Below are positions 39,578-48,460 of a stretch of DNA of 64,000 bases, piece by piece. Below the pieces are notes generated by a model that had not been told where the DNA came from, did not search any database, and saw only the letters and a program-made list of their open reading frames with translations. The stretch is from Paractinoplanes tereljensis (lineage in GTDB: Bacteria > Actinomycetota > Actinomycetes > Mycobacteriales > Micromonosporaceae). The position numbers and the translations under genes are program-made. The stretch covers positions 62,001 through 126,000 of the forward strand of contig NZ_BOMY01000050.1 in assembly GCF_016862435.1 (NCBI RefSeq). The letters are read 5' to 3'. Every line of letters begins with the position of its first letter. The stretch's first letter is position 1.

Positions 39578-41167
39578 TCAGTAAGCGCCCTTGCGCTTGA
39601 GGACCACCCAGATCGTGCGCCAGAGGATGCCCAGGTCGTAGGTGAGTGACCAGTTGTCTACGTAGTAGAGGTCTAGCCGGACCGCCTCGTCCCAGGACAG
39701 GTCGGAGCGGCCGGACACCTGCCAGAGGCCGGTCATGCCGGGTCGCACCAGCAGCCGGCGTCGCACGTCGCCCAGGTAGTCGCCGTCGTCGGCCGGCAGC
39801 GGCCGCGGGCCGACCAGCGACATCTCGCCCTTCAGCACGTTGATCAGCTGGGGCAGCTCGTCCATCGAGCTGGCCCGCAGCTTCTGCCCGAAGGAGAAGA
39901 TCCGCGGATCCACCTTCATCTTGAACATCATGCCGTCGGACTCGTTGAGCTCCTCGAGGGTGGCCTTGCGCTCCTCGGCGTCCACGTACATGGTCCGGAA
40001 CTTCCACACCCGGAAGGTGCGGCCCTCATGGCCGACCCGGGGCTGCCGGAAGAAGACCGGGCCGCGGTCGGAGAGCTTGATGCCGAGCGCGATGAACGCC
40101 AGGAACGGGCTGAGCACCAGCAGGCCGAGGCCGGCCGCTACCCGGTCGAGCAGGTTCTTGGCCAGCCAGCCGGGGCCGGAGAGGGTGGGTTCCTCGACGT
40201 GCAGCAGCGGCAGGCCCTCGATCGGGCGGATGTGCACCCGGGGGCCGGCGATGTCGGTGAGCTGCGGCGCGACCACCAGGTCGACGCCGGTGCCCTCGAG
40301 CTGCCAGGCCAGCCGGCGCAGCTCGCCCGGCTCGGCGCTGGCCGAGCCGCAGACCGCGATGGTGTCCGCGCCCACCTCGCGCACCAGCGACAACAGGTCG
40401 CGGGTGGCGTAGACCGGGACCGGGGTCTCGATGCCGCGGGCGGCCGCGTAGCCGTCGGTCAGGTGGATCGCGACCGGGATCAGCCCGGCCGCCGGTGAGC
40501 GGGTGACCGCCGTGTAGACCTCGAGCGCCTCGGGCAGCGTGCCGACCAGGATCATCCGGTGCGCGCCGTGGCCGGTGCGCCGGCGGGTCACGTGCAGCAC
40601 CTGCCGGGCGGCGACCCGGTCGAACAGCAGGAACGCGAGAGCGCTCACCGACACCATGGCGACCGTGCCGCGGGACAGCCCGGTCTTGGTGGCGAACGCG
40701 AGCAGCGAGACGGCGGCCACCACGGTGACCGACGTGCGCACGATCCGCTTGTATTCCTCGCTGCCCAGGCCCAGGTAACGGCGGTCGTAGGTGCCGTTGG
40801 CCCAGAGCAGGATCAGCCAGCCGAGCGGCAGCACGACGTAGGCGAAGACCGAGAACAGGTCGGCGTCGTGCAGGAACCACAGGCTCTTCCCGGTGAAGCC
40901 GGACTTGGACTTCTCCAGCAGGGTCGACGCCAGGAAACTGGCCAGCAACACGGCCAGAAGATCAAGAATGACCAGGGCCAACGTGTACGGCCGGTGCCAG
41001 CGGGACAGGCGCTTGTGCGTCCGGTTCCAGGCCGATCGGGGTACGCCGTTGCTCGGCGGCTGATCCTGCTGCCACTCGAAGCTGTCGTACGGCACGGGTT
41101 TGCTCCGGCTGCTGTCGGTAACCGGGCGACGCAGGCTGGTAGTCACGTCGCCTACGTCCTCCCGCAT
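39578..41167 (-). CDS. Polyprenyl-phosphate sugar-1-phosphate transferase
   Basis: Protein of about 529 residues of the WbaP/ExoY type. Membrane helices fill residues about 60-200, a Rossmann-like CoA-binding-type domain follows (MILVGTLPEALEVYTAV), and the C-terminal bacterial sugar transferase domain carries VFFRQPRVGHEGRTFRVWKFRTMYVDAE, the DELPQLINVLKGEMSLVGPRPLP and RPGMTGLWQVSGRSDL signatures. It starts exopolysaccharide or glycolipid assembly by loading a sugar phosphate onto undecaprenyl phosphate. The start may be ATG 41167, GTG 41191 or GTG 41146. Confidence 0.9.
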   Translation of the reverse strand: MREDVGDVTTSLRRPVTDSSRSKPVPYDSFEWQQDQPPSNGVPRSAWNRTHKRLSRWHRPYTLALVILDLLAVLLASFLASTLLEKSKSGFTGKSLWFLHDADLFSVFAYVVLPLGWLILLWANGTYDRRYLGLGSEEYKRIVRTSVTVVAAVSLLAFATKTGLSRGTVAMVSVSALAFLLFDRVAARQVLHVTRRRTGHGAHRMILVGTLPEALEVYTAVTRSPAAGLIPVAIHLTDGYAAARGIETPVPVYATRDLLSLVREVGADTIAVCGSASAEPGELRRLAWQLEGTGVDLVVAPQLTDIAGPRVHIRPIEGLPLLHVEEPTLSGPGWLAKNLLDRVAAGLGLLVLSPFLAFIALGIKLSDRGPVFFRQPRVGHEGRTFRVWKFRTMYVDAEERKATLEELNESDGMMFKMKVDPRIFSFGQKLRASSMDELPQLINVLKGEMSLVGPRPLPADDGDYLGDVRRRLLVRPGMTGLWQVSGRSDLSWDEAVRLDLYYVDNWSLTYDLGILWRTIWVVLKRKGAY

Positions 41168-41326
41168 CCGGAAAAGATTACGCACCGCCACGAGATCTCG
41201 GGTCTCGACCCCGCGCGGCTTGCCTGGGACCGGGCCACTATACCGATGGAACGCGTGGAAGGGAGTGGACGTTGCGCACCCTGTACCGGGCCGAGTGGCT
41301 TGTGCACGCAGCGTAACGAGAGAGCG

Positions 41327-42187
41327 CTATCGAATCAGCTTGGAAAGGCGCCGGTCGGCCAGCGGTTTGCCACCGGTCTGGCACGTAGCGCAATACTGCA
41401 GACTCTTGTCGGCGAACGAAACTTCACGGACCGTATCCCCGCAGATCGGGCAGGGCAGACCGGTACGAGCGTGCACCCGCATCCCGGCCCGCTTCTCCCC
41501 CTTGAGCGTGGCGGCCTTCTGTCCGACCGAACGGGCCACCGCGTCGGTCTCCACCTCGCGCATCGCCCGGTAGAGCTCGCCCATCTGTTCGTCGGTGAGT
41601 TTCCCGGTGAGCGCGAACGGCGACATCTTGGCCACGTGCAGGATCTCGTCCGAGTACGCGTTGCCGATGCCGGCCAACACCTCCTGGTCGACCAGCACGC
41701 CCTTGATCTGCCCGTTGCGCGACCGGATGCGCTCGGCGAACTCGTTTTCCGAGACGGCCAGCGCGTCCGGCCCGAGCCGGGCCACGCCGGGCACCTCGGC
41801 CGGGTCCCGCACCAGGTAGGCGGCCAGCGACTTCTGGGTGCCGGCCTCGGTCAGGTCGAAGCCGGAGCCGTCGTCGAGCCGCATCCGCAGCGCGATCGGC
41901 CCACTGCCCGGCTTGAGCGGCGCCGGCGACTTGAACGCGTCGCGGTAGTGCAGCCAGCCGGCGCGGGCCAGGTGCACGACCAGGTGCAGGTCGTCGCCGA
42001 GCCCTAGATCGAGGAATTTGCCGTGCCGCCCGGCGTCGCGGATCTTCATCCCGGCGACGGCCGAGGCCGGCGGATCGTAGGTCTTCAGCGCGCTGAACGA
42101 GGACACCTCGAGGCGCTCCACGGTGTGGCCGACGGCCCGCTCGCGAAGGTAGGCCGCGAGCGCCTCGACCTCAGGAAGTTCGGGCAC
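41327..42187 (-). CDS. Fpg/Nei-family DNA glycosylase
   Basis: Protein of 286 residues with Pro2-Glu3 catalytic residues right after the start (VPELPEVEAL; the Pro2 amine is the nucleophile), a helix-two-turn-helix (QEVLAGIGNAYSDEIL) and a C-terminal zinc finger (CPICGDTVREVSFADKSLQYCATCQ). It removes oxidised bases from DNA. Start is the GTG at 42187, needed to expose Pro2. It is divergent from the glycosyltransferase gene by only 25 bp, and its -10 TACCGT lies 7 nt upstream. It may be Fpg or an actinobacterial Nei-like variant. Confidence 0.92.
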   Translation of the reverse strand: MPELPEVEALAAYLRERAVGHTVERLEVSSFSALKTYDPPASAVAGMKIRDAGRHGKFLDLGLGDDLHLVVHLARAGWLHYRDAFKSPAPLKPGSGPIALRMRLDDGSGFDLTEAGTQKSLAAYLVRDPAEVPGVARLGPDALAVSENEFAERIRSRNGQIKGVLVDQEVLAGIGNAYSDEILHVAKMSPFALTGKLTDEQMGELYRAMREVETDAVARSVGQKAATLKGEKRAGMRVHARTGLPCPICGDTVREVSFADKSLQYCATCQTGGKPLADRRLSKLIR

Positions 42188-42194
42188 GGTGTCA

Positions 42195-42204
42195 ACGGTA
42201 GCGT
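42195..42204. promoter_or_regulatory. Overlapping divergent -10 elements of fpg/GT4
   Basis: The 10-bp ACGGTAGCGT contains minus-strand TACCGT (42195-42200), 7 nt before the fpg GTG, and plus-strand TAGCGT (42199-42204), 8 nt before the glycosyltransferase ATG. Both genes would have leaderless transcripts from one shared opening site. Confidence 0.55.
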
Positions 42205-42212
42205 TTCTCGGC

Positions 42213-43379
42213 ATGAAGGTCGTGGTTGCGCACAACCGGTACCGGGAGGCGATCCCCTCCGGGGAGAACGTCATCGTGGACACCGAGATCGCCCAGCTGC
42301 GGGCGGCCGGGGTCGAGGTGCTGCCGTTCCAGCGCAGCTCCGACTCGATCGGCGAGCTCCCGGCCGTGCAGAAGGCGCTGCTGCCGATCTCCCCGATCTA
42401 CGGCGGCCCGGCCCAGCGTGACCTGGCCAGACTGCTGGCCGACGAGCGCCCGGACGTGCTGCACCTGCACAACCCGTACCCCCTGTTGTCGCCCTGGGTT
42501 ATTCGCACCGCGCACGCCCACGGCGTGCCGGTGATGCAGACCGTGCACAACTACCGCCAGGTCTGCTCCTCCGGGCTGTATTTCCGGGACGGCCACAACT
42601 GCCAGGACTGTCGCGGCAAGGTCGTCGGCTGGCCGGCGGTGAAGCACAGGTGCTACCGCGGTTCGGCCGCGCAGAGCGCTCTGATGGCCACCACCCTGGC
42701 CGTGCACCGGCCCACCTGGCGGTCGGTGGAGACGTATGTTGCGCTCACCGACCAGATCGCCGCCCACCTGCGCGACTACGGCATCCCCGCCGACCGCATC
42801 GTGGTGAAGCCGAACGCTTATCCCGATCCGGGTGCGCCGGACCCGATCGGCGAGGGTTTCCTCTACGGCGGCCGGCTCTCCCCCGAGAAGGGCCTGGAGC
42901 TCCTGCTGGACGCCTGGCTGCGGCACCCCGACGGCTCGCTGGGCCCGCTGCGGATCGCCGGCGACGGCGAGCTACGCCCGCTCGCCGAGAAGGCCGCGGC
43001 GTCCCGCTCCGACGTCACCTACCTGGGCATCCTCGATCGCGCCCAGATGGCGGCGGAGCGGCGCGCGGCGGCGGTCGTGGTGGCCGTGCCGACCTGGAAC
43101 GACGTGCTGCCCACGGTGATCCTGGAGGCGATGGCCGACGGCCGCCCGGTCCTGGGCACTGCGGTCGGCGGCCTGCCGTACCTGATCGGGGAAGAGGCCG
43201 GCTGGCTGGTCCAGCCCGACCCGGCGGCTCTGGCCGCCGCCCTGCCGGTGGCCCGCGACGAGGCCCCCGGCCTGGCCAAGCCGGCCCGAGCCCGCTACCT
43301 GCGGGAATTCCATCCCGACGTGCTGACGGCTCGCTTGGTCGACATCTACCGCGAAATAGCCAGCCGTACGCCGAGGTAG
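42213..43379 (+). CDS. GT4-family glycosyltransferase
   Basis: Protein of 388 residues with the GT-B fold. The N-terminal half starts MKVVVAHNRYREAIPSGENV, and the C-terminal half carries FLYGGRLSPEKGLELLLDAW, the donor-binding DYGIPADRIVVKPN strand and PTWNDVLPTVILEAMADGRPVLGTAVGGLPYLI (the E-x7-E region). A Cys cluster (CSSG...CQDCRGK) lies near residue 120-140. It transfers a sugar from a nucleotide donor to a lipid or polymer acceptor; the sugar is unknown. An upstream in-frame start at 42189 overlaps fpg and is rejected. Confidence 0.9.
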   Translation: MKVVVAHNRYREAIPSGENVIVDTEIAQLRAAGVEVLPFQRSSDSIGELPAVQKALLPISPIYGGPAQRDLARLLADERPDVLHLHNPYPLLSPWVIRTAHAHGVPVMQTVHNYRQVCSSGLYFRDGHNCQDCRGKVVGWPAVKHRCYRGSAAQSALMATTLAVHRPTWRSVETYVALTDQIAAHLRDYGIPADRIVVKPNAYPDPGAPDPIGEGFLYGGRLSPEKGLELLLDAWLRHPDGSLGPLRIAGDGELRPLAEKAAASRSDVTYLGILDRAQMAAERRAAAVVVAVPTWNDVLPTVILEAMADGRPVLGTAVGGLPYLIGEEAGWLVQPDPAALAAALPVARDEAPGLAKPARARYLREFHPDVLTARLVDIYREIASRTPR

Positions 43380-44217: not shown

Positions 44218-44359
44218 GAAAAATCTCCCCCGTAGAAGATCAACGGGGCCACGATAGCCGTACTCGGTGAAGTGCAATGCCCCAAACGGGATGATCGCCC
44301 GGCCGGTGTGGACGCGTACGGTGCCTCCAGCACGTCCACATGGGAGTTCGGAGGCGTTG

Positions 44360-44758
44360 GTGCGGGCACGGAAATTCGTCATCGTGGGGGCCGCGCTCGT
44401 TGCGCTGGCCGGTTGCAGCAGCACCAGTACCAGTAGCAGCGGAAACGGCGCCGTCCCCATCGCGGCGACGCCGCAGGCGCCCGATCCGATCGAGGCGTCG
44501 GTGGCCGCGTCGAAGCGGGCCGAGGCAGCGGGGGACGTCGATTCCTATGTCGCCGCGATCAAGGCGATCGACCCGAAGCTGGTCAAGGATCAGGTCTCCG
44601 CGGTCGACATGGGCAAGGGCATCTGCCAGGAGGCGGCCCAGGGCAAGACCGACGCCCAGGTCGCGACGGATGTCGCCCTGAATTTCAGTGTCGACCAGGC
44701 GGCGGCGCTCAAGGTCGTGACCGCCACCAAGACGGCCCTGTGCCCGGGTAAGCGGTAG
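44360..44758 (+). CDS. DUF732-like lipoprotein
   Basis: Protein of 132 residues with a lipobox (LAGC, Cys19), a Ser/Thr-rich spacer (SSTSTSSSGNG) and a helical DUF732-like domain (VDSYVAAIKAIDPKLVKDQVSAVDMGKGICQEAAQGKTDAQVATDVALNFSVDQAAALKVVTATKTALCPG) with the typical two Cys. It is expected at the outer membrane face. The GTG at 44360 follows GGAGG by 5 nt. Role unknown; DUF732 proteins are frequent in mycobacteria. Confidence 0.8.
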   Translation: MRARKFVIVGAALVALAGCSSTSTSSSGNGAVPIAATPQAPDPIEASVAASKRAEAAGDVDSYVAAIKAIDPKLVKDQVSAVDMGKGICQEAAQGKTDAQVATDVALNFSVDQAAALKVVTATKTALCPGKR

Positions 44759-44759
44759 C

Positions 44760-45485
44760 TCAGGGCCGCAGCGCCGCCCGGGCCGAGAAGATCACGCTGG
44801 CCGCCAGGAAGGCCGCGTTGACCAGCGTGAACAGGCCGATGAACCAGATCGTCCACTGAGGGGCCACGATCAGCACCAGGCCGGCCAGGGCGATCACGGC
44901 GCCGTAGTCGCGGACCAGCTTGACCAGCCGGATCGGCATCGACCGGCTGGTCACCATGCTGGCGGCCTGCTCACCGCCCTGCATCACCGAGGTGACCAGG
45001 TTGACCATCCAGGTGCCGGCGAACGCGGCCAGCAACCAGGCCGGGGTGTCGCTCACCTGCGCCTGGGCGGTGGCGGCCAGGGCCGAGACCAGGGAGATCT
45101 GCACGGCCACGTCGCAGAGCACGTCGAGGCGGCCGCCGGCCAGCGAGGTCTGCCCGGTCACCCGGGCCAACTGACCGTCGGCGCAGTCGAACGCGTACGC
45201 CAACTGCCAACCGATCAGCGCCAGCAGGCCGATCGGCCAGGCCCACACCCGGCCCTCGGCCACCGGGGTGGCCGCCGCGATCACCACGAACGAGACCAGG
45301 CAGCCCAGGCCGAGGTTGAAGACGGTCAGGACGGTCGGCGCGATGCCGCGCTTCCGCGCGATGACCGCGATCCGGGCGCCGACGTGCTGGCTCACGGCCT
45401 CGCTGAAGAGGCCACCGCCCCGGTTGACCGCGTAGTACTCGGCGGCACCGGGGACGGAATCAGCGGTCTGCGACGGCTTCGACAT
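44760..45485 (-). CDS. CDP-alcohol phosphatidyltransferase
   Basis: Protein of 241 residues with about six membrane helices. The catalytic signature is complete: Asp100, Asp103-Gly104, Ala107-Arg108, Gly117, Asp121 and Asp125 (pattern D-x2-DG-x2-AR-x8-G-x3-D-x3-D). It joins a CDP-activated headgroup or diacylglycerol to an alcohol phosphate in the membrane. It is the last gene of an operon with a G1P-dehydrogenase-like enzyme and a nucleotidyltransferase, and overlaps the former by 26 bp. The operon context suggests a CDP-glycerol type substrate, unlike ordinary PgsA/PssA. Confidence 0.9.
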   Translation of the reverse strand: MSKPSQTADSVPGAAEYYAVNRGGGLFSEAVSQHVGARIAVIARKRGIAPTVLTVFNLGLGCLVSFVVIAAATPVAEGRVWAWPIGLLALIGWQLAYAFDCADGQLARVTGQTSLAGGRLDVLCDVAVQISLVSALAATAQAQVSDTPAWLLAAFAGTWMVNLVTSVMQGGEQAASMVTSRSMPIRLVKLVRDYGAVIALAGLVLIVAPQWTIWFIGLFTLVNAAFLAASVIFSARAALRP

Positions 45486-46521
45486 ATTCGGCCAGCTTTC
45501 GGCGTATCTCGTCCGGGCTCATGGCCAGGTGCTCCAGGATGGTGTAGCGGTCGGGGCGGGTGCGCGGAGCGAACTCGACCGCCTCGACGAACTGGTCGGC
45601 GTCCAGGTCGACGTCGGCGGGCACCCGCGGCAGCTGGTGCCGGGCCAGGCAATCGGCCATCTGCGCGAAGCGACGTTCGTCGCCGCGCAGGAACGTGCAG
45701 AACAGCGCGCCCAGCCCGGCCAGCTCGCCGTGCGAGGCGGTGCCGGGGAAGAGCGAGTCGACGGCGTGCATGATCTCGTGACAGCCGCCCGAGGACGGGC
45801 GGCTGCTGCCGCAGACCGCCATGGCCAGGCCGCTGGAGATCAAAGCCTCGGCGAGTACGGTGACGAAGGCGTCATCGGACATATCGCCCGGCATGGTGAG
45901 CACCGCCTCGGCGCCCATCCGGGACAGCGAGGCGGCCAGGCCGTCGACCGGCTCGCCGCGCACCTCGCGGGCCAGCTCCCAGTCGGCCAGCGCGCTGATG
46001 TTGCTGATCACATCGCCGATGCCGCCGCGGTTGACCCGCTCCGGGCCGTTCTCGACGAAGTCCAGGTCGACGATCACGCCGAACGGGATGTGCACCCCGT
46101 ACGAGCCCTTGATGCCGTCGTGGATGAGGCTCGCCACCGGGGAGGCGATGCCGTCGTTGCCGAGGCTGGTGGCCACCGAGATCATCGGCAGGCCCCAGCG
46201 GTTGGCCGCGTACTTCGCGGTGTCGACCGTGGTGCCGCCGCCGATGCCGACGACCGCGTCGTACCGGCGGGCCCGGAGCTTGCCGGAGAGCTCCAGCGCG
46301 GCGTCCAGGGTGCCGCCGGTGGTGGTGTAGACGTCGGCCGAGCCGAGCGTCGGGCGGATCAGGTTAACCACGCGTTCACCCAGACCAGGTCCGACCACAA
46401 CCGCGACGTCCCCGCCGGCCGAGATCCGGCCGTCGGCCAGGATGCGGCCCAGATCGGCCACCGCACCCCGGCGTACGTCGATGTGCAGCGGCGTCTGGAT
46501 GCTGCGGGCTAGTAGTGGCAT
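45460..46521 (-). CDS. sn-Glycerol-1-phosphate dehydrogenase-like enzyme
   Basis: Protein of 353 residues of the iron-alcohol-dehydrogenase/dehydroquinate-synthase fold. The features match the G1P dehydrogenase branch: NAD(P) loop GGGTTVDTAKYAA (residues 94-106), the LGNDGIASP motif (120-128), and metal ligands Asp170, His248 and His264 (GGCHEIMHA, TASHGELAGLG). It should reduce dihydroxyacetone phosphate to sn-glycerol-1-phosphate, normally an archaeal lipid precursor and rare in bacteria. It overlaps the nucleotidyltransferase upstream and the CDP-alcohol transferase downstream. Confidence 0.85.
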   Translation of the reverse strand: MPLLARSIQTPLHIDVRRGAVADLGRILADGRISAGGDVAVVVGPGLGERVVNLIRPTLGSADVYTTTGGTLDAALELSGKLRARRYDAVVGIGGGTTVDTAKYAANRWGLPMISVATSLGNDGIASPVASLIHDGIKGSYGVHIPFGVIVDLDFVENGPERVNRGGIGDVISNISALADWELAREVRGEPVDGLAASLSRMGAEAVLTMPGDMSDDAFVTVLAEALISSGLAMAVCGSSRPSSGGCHEIMHAVDSLFPGTASHGELAGLGALFCTFLRGDERRFAQMADCLARHQLPRVPADVDLDADQFVEAVEFAPRTRPDRYTILEHLAMSPDEIRRKLAEYVEAVADR

Positions 46522-47240
46522 GCGATGTCCCGAGCCTTGGCCAGATCTTCGTGGTTGTCGACCTCGACCCAGCTGACCTCGCCGATCGTGGCCGCACGCA
46601 CCTCGCCGCCGCGGTTCGCGTACTCCTGGAAGCCGTCCTCGTAGTAGAGGTTCGGGTCGCGCTCGAAGGTCGTCTTGAGCGCGTCGGCCAGCGCGGAGGC
46701 GGCCGAGGCCTCGATGATGTTGGCGCCGATGTACTCGCCGAACGCCTCGGCCGGATCCATCAGCTTCGTGATTTTGGCGAGCTGGCCATCTGCGCGGAAG
46801 ACGGTCTTCATCTCCTCGTCAGCCAACTTCTTCAGATTGTCGATGGCAAGCAGGATGCTCGGTCCACGATTCTCCAGGAGGGTCTGCTCGACGCTTACCG
46901 GATGCACGGTGTCGCCATTGACCATCAACGCGCCCTGCGCGAAGTGGTCACGGGCGAGCCAGAGGGAATAGGCGTTGTTCCACTCCTCGGCCTTGTCGTT
47001 GTGCACAAGGCTGATTTTGACGCCGTACTTCTCCTGGAACGCGGACACCCGCTCCTCGACGGCGCCGGCGCAGTAGCCGACCACGATCGTGACGTCCGTG
47101 AGTCCGGCCGCGGCCAGATTGCGCAGCGAGATATCCATGATCGTCGTGTCGCCGTCCACCGGGACGAGCGCCTTGGGCAGCGTGTCCGTGTACGGGCGAA
47201 GCCGACGGCCGGCTCCGGCCGCGAGTACGAGTCCGATCAT
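46509..47240 (-). CDS. Nucleotidyltransferase (CTP:phosphocholine/sugar-phosphate type)
   Basis: Protein of 243 residues with the NTP loop LVLAAGAGRRLRPYTDTLPKALVPVDG, a product-binding MVNGDTVHP segment and WVEVDNHEDLAKARDI near the end. Such enzymes form CDP-choline or a nucleotide-sugar. Here the operon suggests it activates G1P to a CDP-glycerol. It is the first gene and probably starts with ATG at 47240 behind AGGAG. The donor nucleotide is not decidable from sequence. Confidence 0.82.
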   Translation of the reverse strand: MIGLVLAAGAGRRLRPYTDTLPKALVPVDGDTTIMDISLRNLAAAGLTDVTIVVGYCAGAVEERVSAFQEKYGVKISLVHNDKAEEWNNAYSLWLARDHFAQGALMVNGDTVHPVSVEQTLLENRGPSILLAIDNLKKLADEEMKTVFRADGQLAKITKLMDPAEAFGEYIGANIIEASAASALADALKTTFERDPNLYYEDGFQEYANRGGEVRAATIGEVSWVEVDNHEDLAKARDIACHY

Positions 47241-47352
47241 GGGGTCTTGTCTCCTGTCGAGGGGCGTGCAGCACTAGCCCCGCGAGGATAACGGCCGCTG
47301 TCTCATTGGCCGGACCGCACGAGGCAAAAGAAAATCCTATAGAGGCTGCTCG

Positions 47353-47358
47353 TAAGCT
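47353..47358 (+). promoter_or_regulatory. -10 element of the aminotransferase gene (leaderless)
   Basis: TAAGCT followed by 7 nt and the ATG at 47366. Confidence 0.5.
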
Positions 47359-47365
47359 GGAAACC

Positions 47366-48460
47366 ATGACCGCTGAGCAGCTGATCTCTTTCGCCCGTGG
47401 CGCTCCGTCGCTGGACATCATCGACGTTGAGGGTCTCAAGGCCGCCGCCGCGCGCGCCTTCGACGCCGACCCGGCCGGCATTACCGCTTACGGCACGTCC
47501 GTCGGTTATGTCCCGCTCCGCAAGTGGATCGCGGAGAAGCACGGGGTCTCGGCCGACCAGGTCATCGTGACGAACGGGTCGCTTCAGGCCGACGCGTTCC
47601 TCTTCAACCACCTCGTGCAGCCGGGCGACACCGTGGTCGTGGAGAAGCCGACCTATGACCGCACCCTGCTCAGCCTGCAGAACCTCGGCGCCAAGGTGCA
47701 CCAGGTCACGCTGCAGGAGGACGGCATCGACGTGGCCGAGCTGCGCGCGCTGCTCGAATCGGGTGTCCGCCCCAAGCTCGCCCACATCATCCCGAACTAC
47801 CAGAACCCGGCCGGCATCACGCTGTCCGCGCAGAAGCGGCGTGACCTGCTCGCGCTCGCCGCCGAGTACGGCTTCACCATCTTCGAGGACGACCCGTACG
47901 TGGACATCCGGTTCCGCGGCGACGCCCTGCCCTCGATGCTGTCGCTGGACTCGGACAACGTCGTGGTGCACGCCTCCAGCTTCACCAAGACGGTGTGCCC
48001 GGGCGTCCGGGTGGGTTACCTGGTCGGGCCGGCCGCGCTGATCGACGCGATCGCCAAGAAGGCCACCAACCTGTACATCTCGCCCGGCATGGTGTCTGAG
48101 GCGATCGTGCACCAGTTCTGTGTTTCCGGCGACATCGACCGCTCGATCCAGACGGTCAGCGCCGCGCTCGCCGAGCGGGCCACGGTTCTCGCCGACTCGC
48201 TGCGTAAGCACATCCCCGGCGCGGTCTTCACCGAGCCGGACGGCGGTTACTTCCTCTGGGTCGACCTGCCCAGCGACGTCGACGTCGACAAGCTGTTCCC
48301 GGCCGCGATGAAGAAGGGTGTGGCTATCGTCAAGGGGACGGACTTCCTGCTCGACGGCGGGAAGAGTTCGGTTCGCCTGGCGTTCTCCGCGGTCACCGTC
48401 GACCAGATCGACGAGGGCGTCCGCCGTCTGGCCGAGGCGATCGAAGAGGTACGCGCCTAA
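47366..48460 (+). CDS. PLP-dependent aminotransferase (class I/II)
   Basis: Protein of 364 residues of the 2-aminoadipate/aromatic aminotransferase type. The PLP lysine is in HASSFTKTVCPGVRVGYL; the substrate Arg lies in SSVRLAFS near residue 335. The motif IIPNYQNPAGITLS is typical of the KAT/LysN group. Start is the ATG at 47366; the frame extends to 47306. It is divergent from the lipid operon. Probable substrates are aromatic or branched amino acids. Confidence 0.9.
   Translation: MTAEQLISFARGAPSLDIIDVEGLKAAAARAFDADPAGITAYGTSVGYVPLRKWIAEKHGVSADQVIVTNGSLQADAFLFNHLVQPGDTVVVEKPTYDRTLLSLQNLGAKVHQVTLQEDGIDVAELRALLESGVRPKLAHIIPNYQNPAGITLSAQKRRDLLALAAEYGFTIFEDDPYVDIRFRGDALPSMLSLDSDNVVVHASSFTKTVCPGVRVGYLVGPAALIDAIAKKATNLYISPGMVSEAIVHQFCVSGDIDRSIQTVSAALAERATVLADSLRKHIPGAVFTEPDGGYFLWVDLPSDVDVDKLFPAAMKKGVAIVKGTDFLLDGGKSSVRLAFSAVTVDQIDEGVRRLAEAIEEVRA

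Follow-up and report, generated by a model that had tools for sequence, protein, structure and literature searches.

The NT–G1–PT operon

The operon described here lies in a 64-kb stretch of DNA (contig NZ_BOMY01000050.1, positions 62,001 to 126,000; hereafter the window) from the 10.8-Mb, Actinoplanes-like genome of a member of the Micromonosporaceae. Three overlapping genes, all on the minus strand, encode a nucleotidyltransferase (NT), an sn-glycerol-1-phosphate-dehydrogenase-like protein (G1) and a CDP-alcohol phosphotransferase (PT) (Table 1). A first-pass annotation of the same DNA had recognized the three overlapping genes, and its coordinates proved exact. The overlaps suggest translational coupling at both the NT/G1 and the G1/PT junction. 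On balance, we favour reading the operon as a supply-and-transfer module for sn-glycerol-1-phosphate (G1P), the glycerol phosphate enantiomer typical of archaea, that would feed a teichoic-acid-like polymer and not a membrane lipid of archaeal type.

The trio is firmly conserved in the window's family. A total of 105 loci were scanned for it, and 101 of these hold G1: 2 from the window's own genome, 19 from a family search and 80 from GTDB contigs, the last being the best 80 of 105 confirmed relatives. The other four scanned loci (L002–L005) belong to the window's genome and carry more distant dehydrogenases. NT, G1 and PT occur on one strand and in the same order in 101/101 of the loci holding G1, which excludes chance as the source of the arrangement. 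Outside the window's own genome, G1 identity in these loci is 78–97%, the G1 of Paractinoplanes toevensis standing at 97%. A strong G1 match (E ≤ 1e-90) is found in 84 of the 121 genomes of the family sample.

Table 1. Genes and overlaps of the operon and its surroundings (window coordinates)
Feature	Coordinates	Strand	Size	Basis
NT, PF00483-type nucleotidyltransferase, proposed CTP:sn-glycerol-1-phosphate cytidylyltransferase	46509..47240	-	243 aa	PF00483 match
G1, sn-glycerol-1-phosphate-dehydrogenase-like, Fe-ADH_2 family	45460..46521	-	353 aa	PF13685 match
PT, CDP-alcohol phosphotransferase, full catalytic motif, many helices	44760..45485	-	241 aa	PF01066 match
NT/G1 gene overlap	46509..46521	-	13 bases	sequence
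G1/PT gene overlap	45460..45485	-	26 bases	sequence
Aminotransferase, class I/II, MocR-like, adjoining NT	47306-48460	opposite to NT		Pfam, NCBIfam
DUF732 small protein, apparently a lipoprotein	44267-44758	convergent with PT		Pfam
Polyprenyl glycosylphosphotransferase (TIGR03025), formamidopyrimidine-DNA glycosylase, GT4 glycosyltransferase	39578-43379

Enzyme families of the three products

G1 matches PF13685 at 1e-31 (Pfam). Its best NCBIfam model is PRK00843, NAD(P)-dependent glycerol-1-phosphate dehydrogenase, at 243.8 bits over residues 6–337, compared with 49.2 bits for the glycerol dehydrogenase model. Because this score does not reach the PRK00843 equivalog cut-off of 413, G1 is filed as G1P-dehydrogenase-like only. 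In the Protein Data Bank (PDB), the glycerol-1-phosphate dehydrogenase structure 4rgq matches G1 residues 84–346 at 7.8e-43. In the alignment, G1 residues D170, H248 and H264 fall on 181, 259 and 280 of the 4rgq chain, which we take to be the metal ligands, D148, H226 and H247 of M. jannaschii (33-residue offset). The D123-GIASP motif is also present, so both features that the first-pass annotation had read in G1, a full metal set and DGIASP, were recovered.

NT belongs to PF00483 (4.3e-13; 49.8 bits against a cut-off of 21.2, Pfam). Its best PDB sequence match is LicC, a CTP:phosphocholine cytidylyltransferase (7.4e-16, residues 3–104), and a LicC-like NN-(A/F)-YSL stretch in the alignment is suggestive only of CTP plus a small phosphorylated alcohol as substrates. 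Choline was rejected as a substrate drawn from the LicC match, since the alignment covers residues 3–104 only and does not fix the substrate. Activation of choline or of a sugar is less likely, because the operon includes a G1P-dehydrogenase homologue. The AlphaFold2 model (mean predicted local distance difference test, pLDDT, 95.2) names no substrate either: among the structural matches from Z 27.4 down, IPCT (26.2) and LicC (26.1) are level with many UDP-glucose pyrophosphorylases.

The top structural match of NT is a phosphonate cytidylyltransferase, PntC-AEPT (Z 29.8, 234 residues, root-mean-square deviation 2.1). Together with the adjacent aminotransferase, it invites a phosphonolipid reading, in which NT would resemble PntC, G1 would reduce phosphonoacetaldehyde and the aminotransferase would serve as a 2-aminoethylphosphonate (AEP) transaminase. 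Judged from the family matches of G1 and the aminotransferase, this is very improbable. G1 matches the G1P dehydrogenase model, and no phosphonate-type dehydrogenase model is among its seven listed NCBIfam families (NCBIfam presumably includes one); the aminotransferase is of class I/II and MocR-like, lies on the other strand, and is separated from NT by ~2 kb or more in many Micromonospora loci.

PT matches PF01066 (3.8e-8; 34.3 bits, cut-off 22, Pfam) and contains DCADGQLARVTGQTSLAGGRLDVLCD, the full D-x2-DG-x2-AR-x8-G-x3-D-x3-D motif already noted at first pass. Motif, family cut-off and predicted fold (AlphaFold2, mean pLDDT 85.1) agree on a CDP-alcohol phosphotransferase. The closest structure is AF2299 (Z 19.4, 218 residues, root-mean-square deviation 2.8), followed by IPCT-DIPPS (Z 17.9), and Foldseek likewise puts these two first. 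The IPCT-DIPPS fusion is also among the NCBIfam matches of both NT and PT, far below its cut-off. These likenesses would fit a soluble phosphodiester solute, in which PT, acting on the pattern of IPCT-DIPPS and its inositol substrate, would link CDP-glycerol with either glycerol phosphate or inositol phosphate. Such a product is improbable, given the ABC exporters and glycosyltransferases that adjoin close NT–G1 pairs in other lineages.

Phosphatidylinositol phosphate (PIP) synthases and choline phosphotransferases rank lower in the PT structure search (Z 12.7–14.6), and CEPT1 matches PT in sequence at 3.9e-5. This resemblance to choline/ethanolamine phosphotransferases speaks for a true phospholipid, the product that the first-pass annotation had in mind. 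PT would then join CDP-sn-1-glycerol to diacylglycerol, giving phosphatidylglycerol with an inverted headgroup. The gene company of NT and G1 elsewhere bears directly on this alternative.

NT–G1 pairs in other lineages

Outside the window's group the unit that travels is NT–G1, not the trio, and the neighbouring phosphotransferases change. We abandoned the view that the three genes form one conserved unit throughout the phylum, as PT varies by lineage.

The phylum sample comprised 296 genomes. A close G1 (343 bits or more) occurs in 14 of them, the next best score being 167 bits. Forty further stretches of DNA were read: 20 with a close G1 and without a window-type PT, 7 of window architecture, and 13 with a distant G1. 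In these loci a close G1 has 46% identity or more; distant ones (33–41%, 13/40 loci) are not counted as close.

A TagG-type ABC-2 permease gene is present in 16/20 of the loci with a close G1 and without a window-type PT. The corresponding counts are 0/7 for the further loci of window architecture, 0/13 for the distant-G1 loci and 1/80 for the GTDB trio loci. In genus g50, gene order is the same in 8/8 loci: DUF5941-PT, NT, G1, a second PT, GT2, TagG-type permease, TagH-type ATPase. We treat genus g50 as Streptomyces on the strength of these loci, whose gene set agrees with that given for Streptomyces in PMC13118837. In six g50-type PTs examined, the last motif aspartate is replaced by A or H. 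The g50 cluster in L109 continues into two squalene/phytoene synthase genes (L109:14323-16172, Pfam); in the Streptomyces region of PMC13118837 a phytoene-synthase-type gene is called crtB.

Comparable neighbours occur elsewhere. In two loci from other families (L117 and L120), TagG and TagH types stand beside NT–G1, the L120 permease scoring just under the Pfam cut-off, and in L140 a permease, an ATPase and a DUF5941-PT accompany NT and G1. Deep-branching relatives within the window's own family (L127, L129, L130, L131 and L133) show NT–G1–permease, and the CDP-alcohol phosphotransferase motif is absent in all five stretches. Among distant pairs, L121, from another family, has NT–G1 (G1 34%) divergent from a PF04464 gene; its NT was recognized from the translation of an open reading frame, outside the matches of the neighbour search. 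In L122 a WecG/TagA-type glycosyltransferase gene follows a distant G1 and a PT.

This gene company points to a teichoic-acid-like end use. TagG/TagH-type genes beside close NT–G1 pairs, the five stretches that lack the phosphotransferase motif, and the co-occurrence of G1 with PF04464 and DUF5941 (see below) all tell against transfer to a phospholipid, which we regard as unlikely.

Loci with a distant G1 offered two further observations. In L122 a 997-residue SpoIID/Golvesin_C protein is encoded between NT and G1 (L122:10585-13578). In L123, L125, L126, L146 and L147, a distant G1P-dehydrogenase clade (36–41%) occurs with NT and a polyprenyl glycosylphosphotransferase-like gene, some loci of this clade adding type I phosphodiesterase and DUF4012 genes; these loci perhaps serve another G1P-decorated polymer.

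Co-occurrence with wall genes across genomes

PF04464, the family of TagF-type enzymes, is present in 28/296 genomes of the phylum sample: 12/14 of those with a close G1 and 16/282 of those without. DUF5941 is present in 13/296, and all 13 have a close G1; G165 alone has a close G1 without DUF5941. TIGR01518, the TagD model, matches in 36/296 genomes at 1e-10 and is over its cut-off in 8, none of which has a close G1. Among the 28 PF04464 genomes, 12 have a close G1, 6 have a TagD match of at least 100 bits, and none has both. Thresholds for these comparisons, and for those in the family sample, were set after the lists were seen, and the 8 genomes of g50 do not count as independent cases.

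A similar association holds in the family sample. A strong DUF5941-PT (E ≤ 1e-50) is present in 74/121 genomes, 67/84 with a strong G1 and 7/37 without (Fisher p 4e-10), and by genus in 22/28 with and 3/16 without (Fisher p 3e-4), both tests ignoring phylogeny.

The window's genome itself holds 11 PF01066, 2 PF04464 and 24 ABC2_membrane matches (Pfam), and both TagF-type polymerase and TagGH-type exporter genes are present. On its contig C16, within ~14 kb, a permease and an ATPase share 46% and 65% identity with TagG and TagH of g50, respectively; they match Pfam ABC2_membrane and ABC_tran, and teichoic acid transport is their predicted role. The same region has a GT2–PF04464 (TagF-type) gene and a gene for a 622-residue DUF5941 CDP-alcohol phosphotransferase, whose identity to its g50 counterpart is 38% across 383 residues. 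The C16 TagG/TagH genes are followed directly by a pair of oppositely oriented genes for similar proteins, putatively secreted and with no match in Pfam (L182:10094-12615).

TagD (TIGR01518) was not matched at 1e-10 in the window's genome or in seven sampled congeners, and TIGR01518 is above cut-off in 0/121 family genomes. Its absence alone means little, because 10/28 PF04464 genomes lack both a close G1 and a TagD match of 100 bits, among them G241, the source of L121.

An archaeal-type ether lipid would also account for a G1P dehydrogenase homologue, although such a route needs no CDP-glycerol. At 0.001, PcrB/GGGPS (PF01884) had no match in the window's genome, the same search being positive in 7/14 controls, and the ether lipid was set aside on this ground; it is barely credible here. 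The suggestion exists in print for Streptomyces, listed among bacteria in which the three archaeal lipid genes all occur and named as possible makers of archaea-like lipids (PMC6431249).

Several observations weigh against a wall-polymer role for the operon. Apart from the single TagG in the 80 GTDB loci, none of the wall genes tested beside the window-type operon was present there (TagH, TagF, TagA and DUF5941-PT, each 0/80), and the 7 further loci of window architecture are also without an adjoining wall gene of the tested set, as the phospholipid reading would have it. A tblastn search with the g50 PT did not recover the window PT at 1e-4, and the two fall in separate clades, so a common role for the third gene is unproven. 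TagG is missing from 4/20 close-G1 loci (L118, L119, L128 and L132); at L119, L128 and L132 NT was not seen either in the same neighbour search. PF04464 is missing in 2/14 close-G1 genomes (G206 and G165), and weak TIGR01518 matches occur in 4/14: G227, G248 and G291 of g50 (63–66 bits) and G228 (52 bits). In the family sample, sub-cut-off TIGR01518 matches occur in 18/121 genomes; 17/84 genomes have a strong G1 without a strong DUF5941-PT, and 7 show the reverse. The 10 PF04464 genomes with neither donor gene, the phylogeny-blind Fisher tests, the sub-equivalog score of G1 and the phosphonate enzyme at the head of the NT matches belong on the same side, as does the scope of the PcrB search, which covered the window's genome only while some Streptomyces have all three archaeal lipid genes (PMC6431249).

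Genes flanking the operon

Scans for promoters and terminators found nothing. Downstream lies the DUF732 gene, and beyond it the operon is flanked by the genes for a polyprenyl glycosylphosphotransferase, a formamidopyrimidine-DNA glycosylase and a GT4 glycosyltransferase (Table 1). Within the retrieved DNA these three are present in 57, 60 and 60 of the 80 GTDB loci, respectively. A link of these flanking genes to the polymer is possible.

Proposed pathway and its meaning

From established family chemistry we infer the reactions of the three enzymes, with all their substrates and the sn-1 stereochemistry. G1 would reduce dihydroxyacetone phosphate (DHAP) to G1P, NT would convert G1P and CTP to CDP-sn-1-glycerol, and PT, a membrane protein, would take phosphoglycerol from this CDP donor and attach it to a hydroxyl group on an acceptor held in the membrane. 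Homology and the overlap of the genes give good support, short of proof, to the predicted route from DHAP through G1P to CDP-glycerol. This part of the lipid pathway put forward at first pass stands; its end point, a polar lipid headgroup, is not supported in the form given there, in view of the export genes beside close NT–G1 pairs, the TagF- or TagA-type genes beside distant ones, the co-occurrence of G1 with TagF-type and DUF5941 genes, and the failure to find PcrB/GGGPS in the window's genome.

A wall destination of the glycerol phosphate is probable. The acceptor of PT would be a primer, linked to a polyprenyl or a glycolipid, on which a polymer of wall or lipoteichoic-acid type is built; we hold this assignment tentatively and with appreciable doubt, transfer to diacylglycerol being ranked next. 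The chain may then be extended by the genome's TagF-type enzymes from the same CDP-glycerol donor and exported by a TagG/TagH-type ABC transporter; the TagF/TagGH genes and the DUF5941 phosphotransferase gene lie at a separate locus.

A broader proposal, for which we would claim somewhat less than an even chance, concerns the wall or lipoteichoic polymers of Streptomyces, Micromonosporaceae and certain other actinobacteria: their donor would be cytosolic CDP-sn-1-glycerol, of opposite handedness to the donor in Bacillus. In place of TagD, these bacteria would rely on a dehydrogenase of archaeal type together with a cytidylyltransferase of LicC/IPCT type, and CDP-alcohol phosphotransferases would prime the chain on lipid. 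If this is true, actinobacteria can reach the usual sn-1 configuration of lipoteichoic acid with no need of LtaS, and the G1P dehydrogenases that they carry serve the wall and do not indicate archaeal lipids.

The NT–G1 pair would then bear on four printed positions. For the capsule maker A. pleuropneumoniae, free G1P was argued to be probably absent, AraM not being ubiquitous in bacteria (PMC8262930). Two TagF-like capsule polymerases consume CDP-sn-1-glycerol from a racemic mixture in vitro, and the CDP-glycerol of wall teichoic acid is treated as sn-3 (PMC5974469). Streptomyces are named as possible makers of archaea-like lipids (PMC6431249). Streptomyces lipoteichoic acid is described in a group without clear LtaS orthologues, and the way in which actinobacteria lacking LtaS form polyglycerolphosphate lipoteichoic acid is left open (PMC3196553). 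Two further reports concern the polymers themselves: S. griseus has a ribitol wall teichoic acid with terminal glycerol phosphate (PMC13274773), and an S. roseosporus mutant in a tagG that may be the one of the cluster shows the phenotypes expected of wall-teichoic-acid deficiency (PMC10269677).

A literature search found no paper on a G1P cytidylyltransferase or a G1P-fed teichoic acid, a weak negative, as subscription papers were mostly outside its reach; nor did it find a paper on DUF5941. The Streptomyces synteny is already known (PMC13118837); a wall pathway fed by G1P did not turn up in the same search.

Comparison with known systems

Bacillus wall teichoic acid (TagD, TagB/TagF, TagGH) is one close parallel: CDP-glycerol is the proposed donor, and PF04464 and TagGH-type genes are present in the genome. 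The differences are that no TagD was detected here, the donor being proposed to come from G1P via NT, and that there are extra CDP-alcohol phosphotransferases, the window PT and DUF5941-PT. AraM of Bacillus, a G1P dehydrogenase feeding PcrB, resembles G1 as a G1P-dehydrogenase homologue in a bacterium; here, however, no PcrB was found in the genome, and G1 is paired with a nucleotidyltransferase. IPCT-DIPPS and AF2299, each combining a CTP transferase with a CDP-alcohol phosphotransferase, share the two folds of NT and PT, but the substrate of IPCT-DIPPS is inositol phosphate and the fusion comes without a dehydrogenase. The CDP-2-glycerol pathway of pneumococcal capsule 23F likewise has its own reductase and cytidylyltransferase for an activated glycerol of unusual type, although it uses glycerol-2-phosphate, serves a capsule and relies on other enzymes.

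Another close system is the Streptomyces region with araM, tagG, tagH, crtB, a CDP-alcohol phosphatidyltransferase, a GT2 and a sugar-phosphate nucleotidyltransferase, which has been linked to teichoic acid biosynthesis and secondary metabolism (PMC13118837). Unlike the present proposal, its description in the text available gives neither pathway nor stereochemistry. Its gene set is that of the g50 loci, whereas the window's group keeps NT–G1 apart from the export genes and joins the pair to a different PT.

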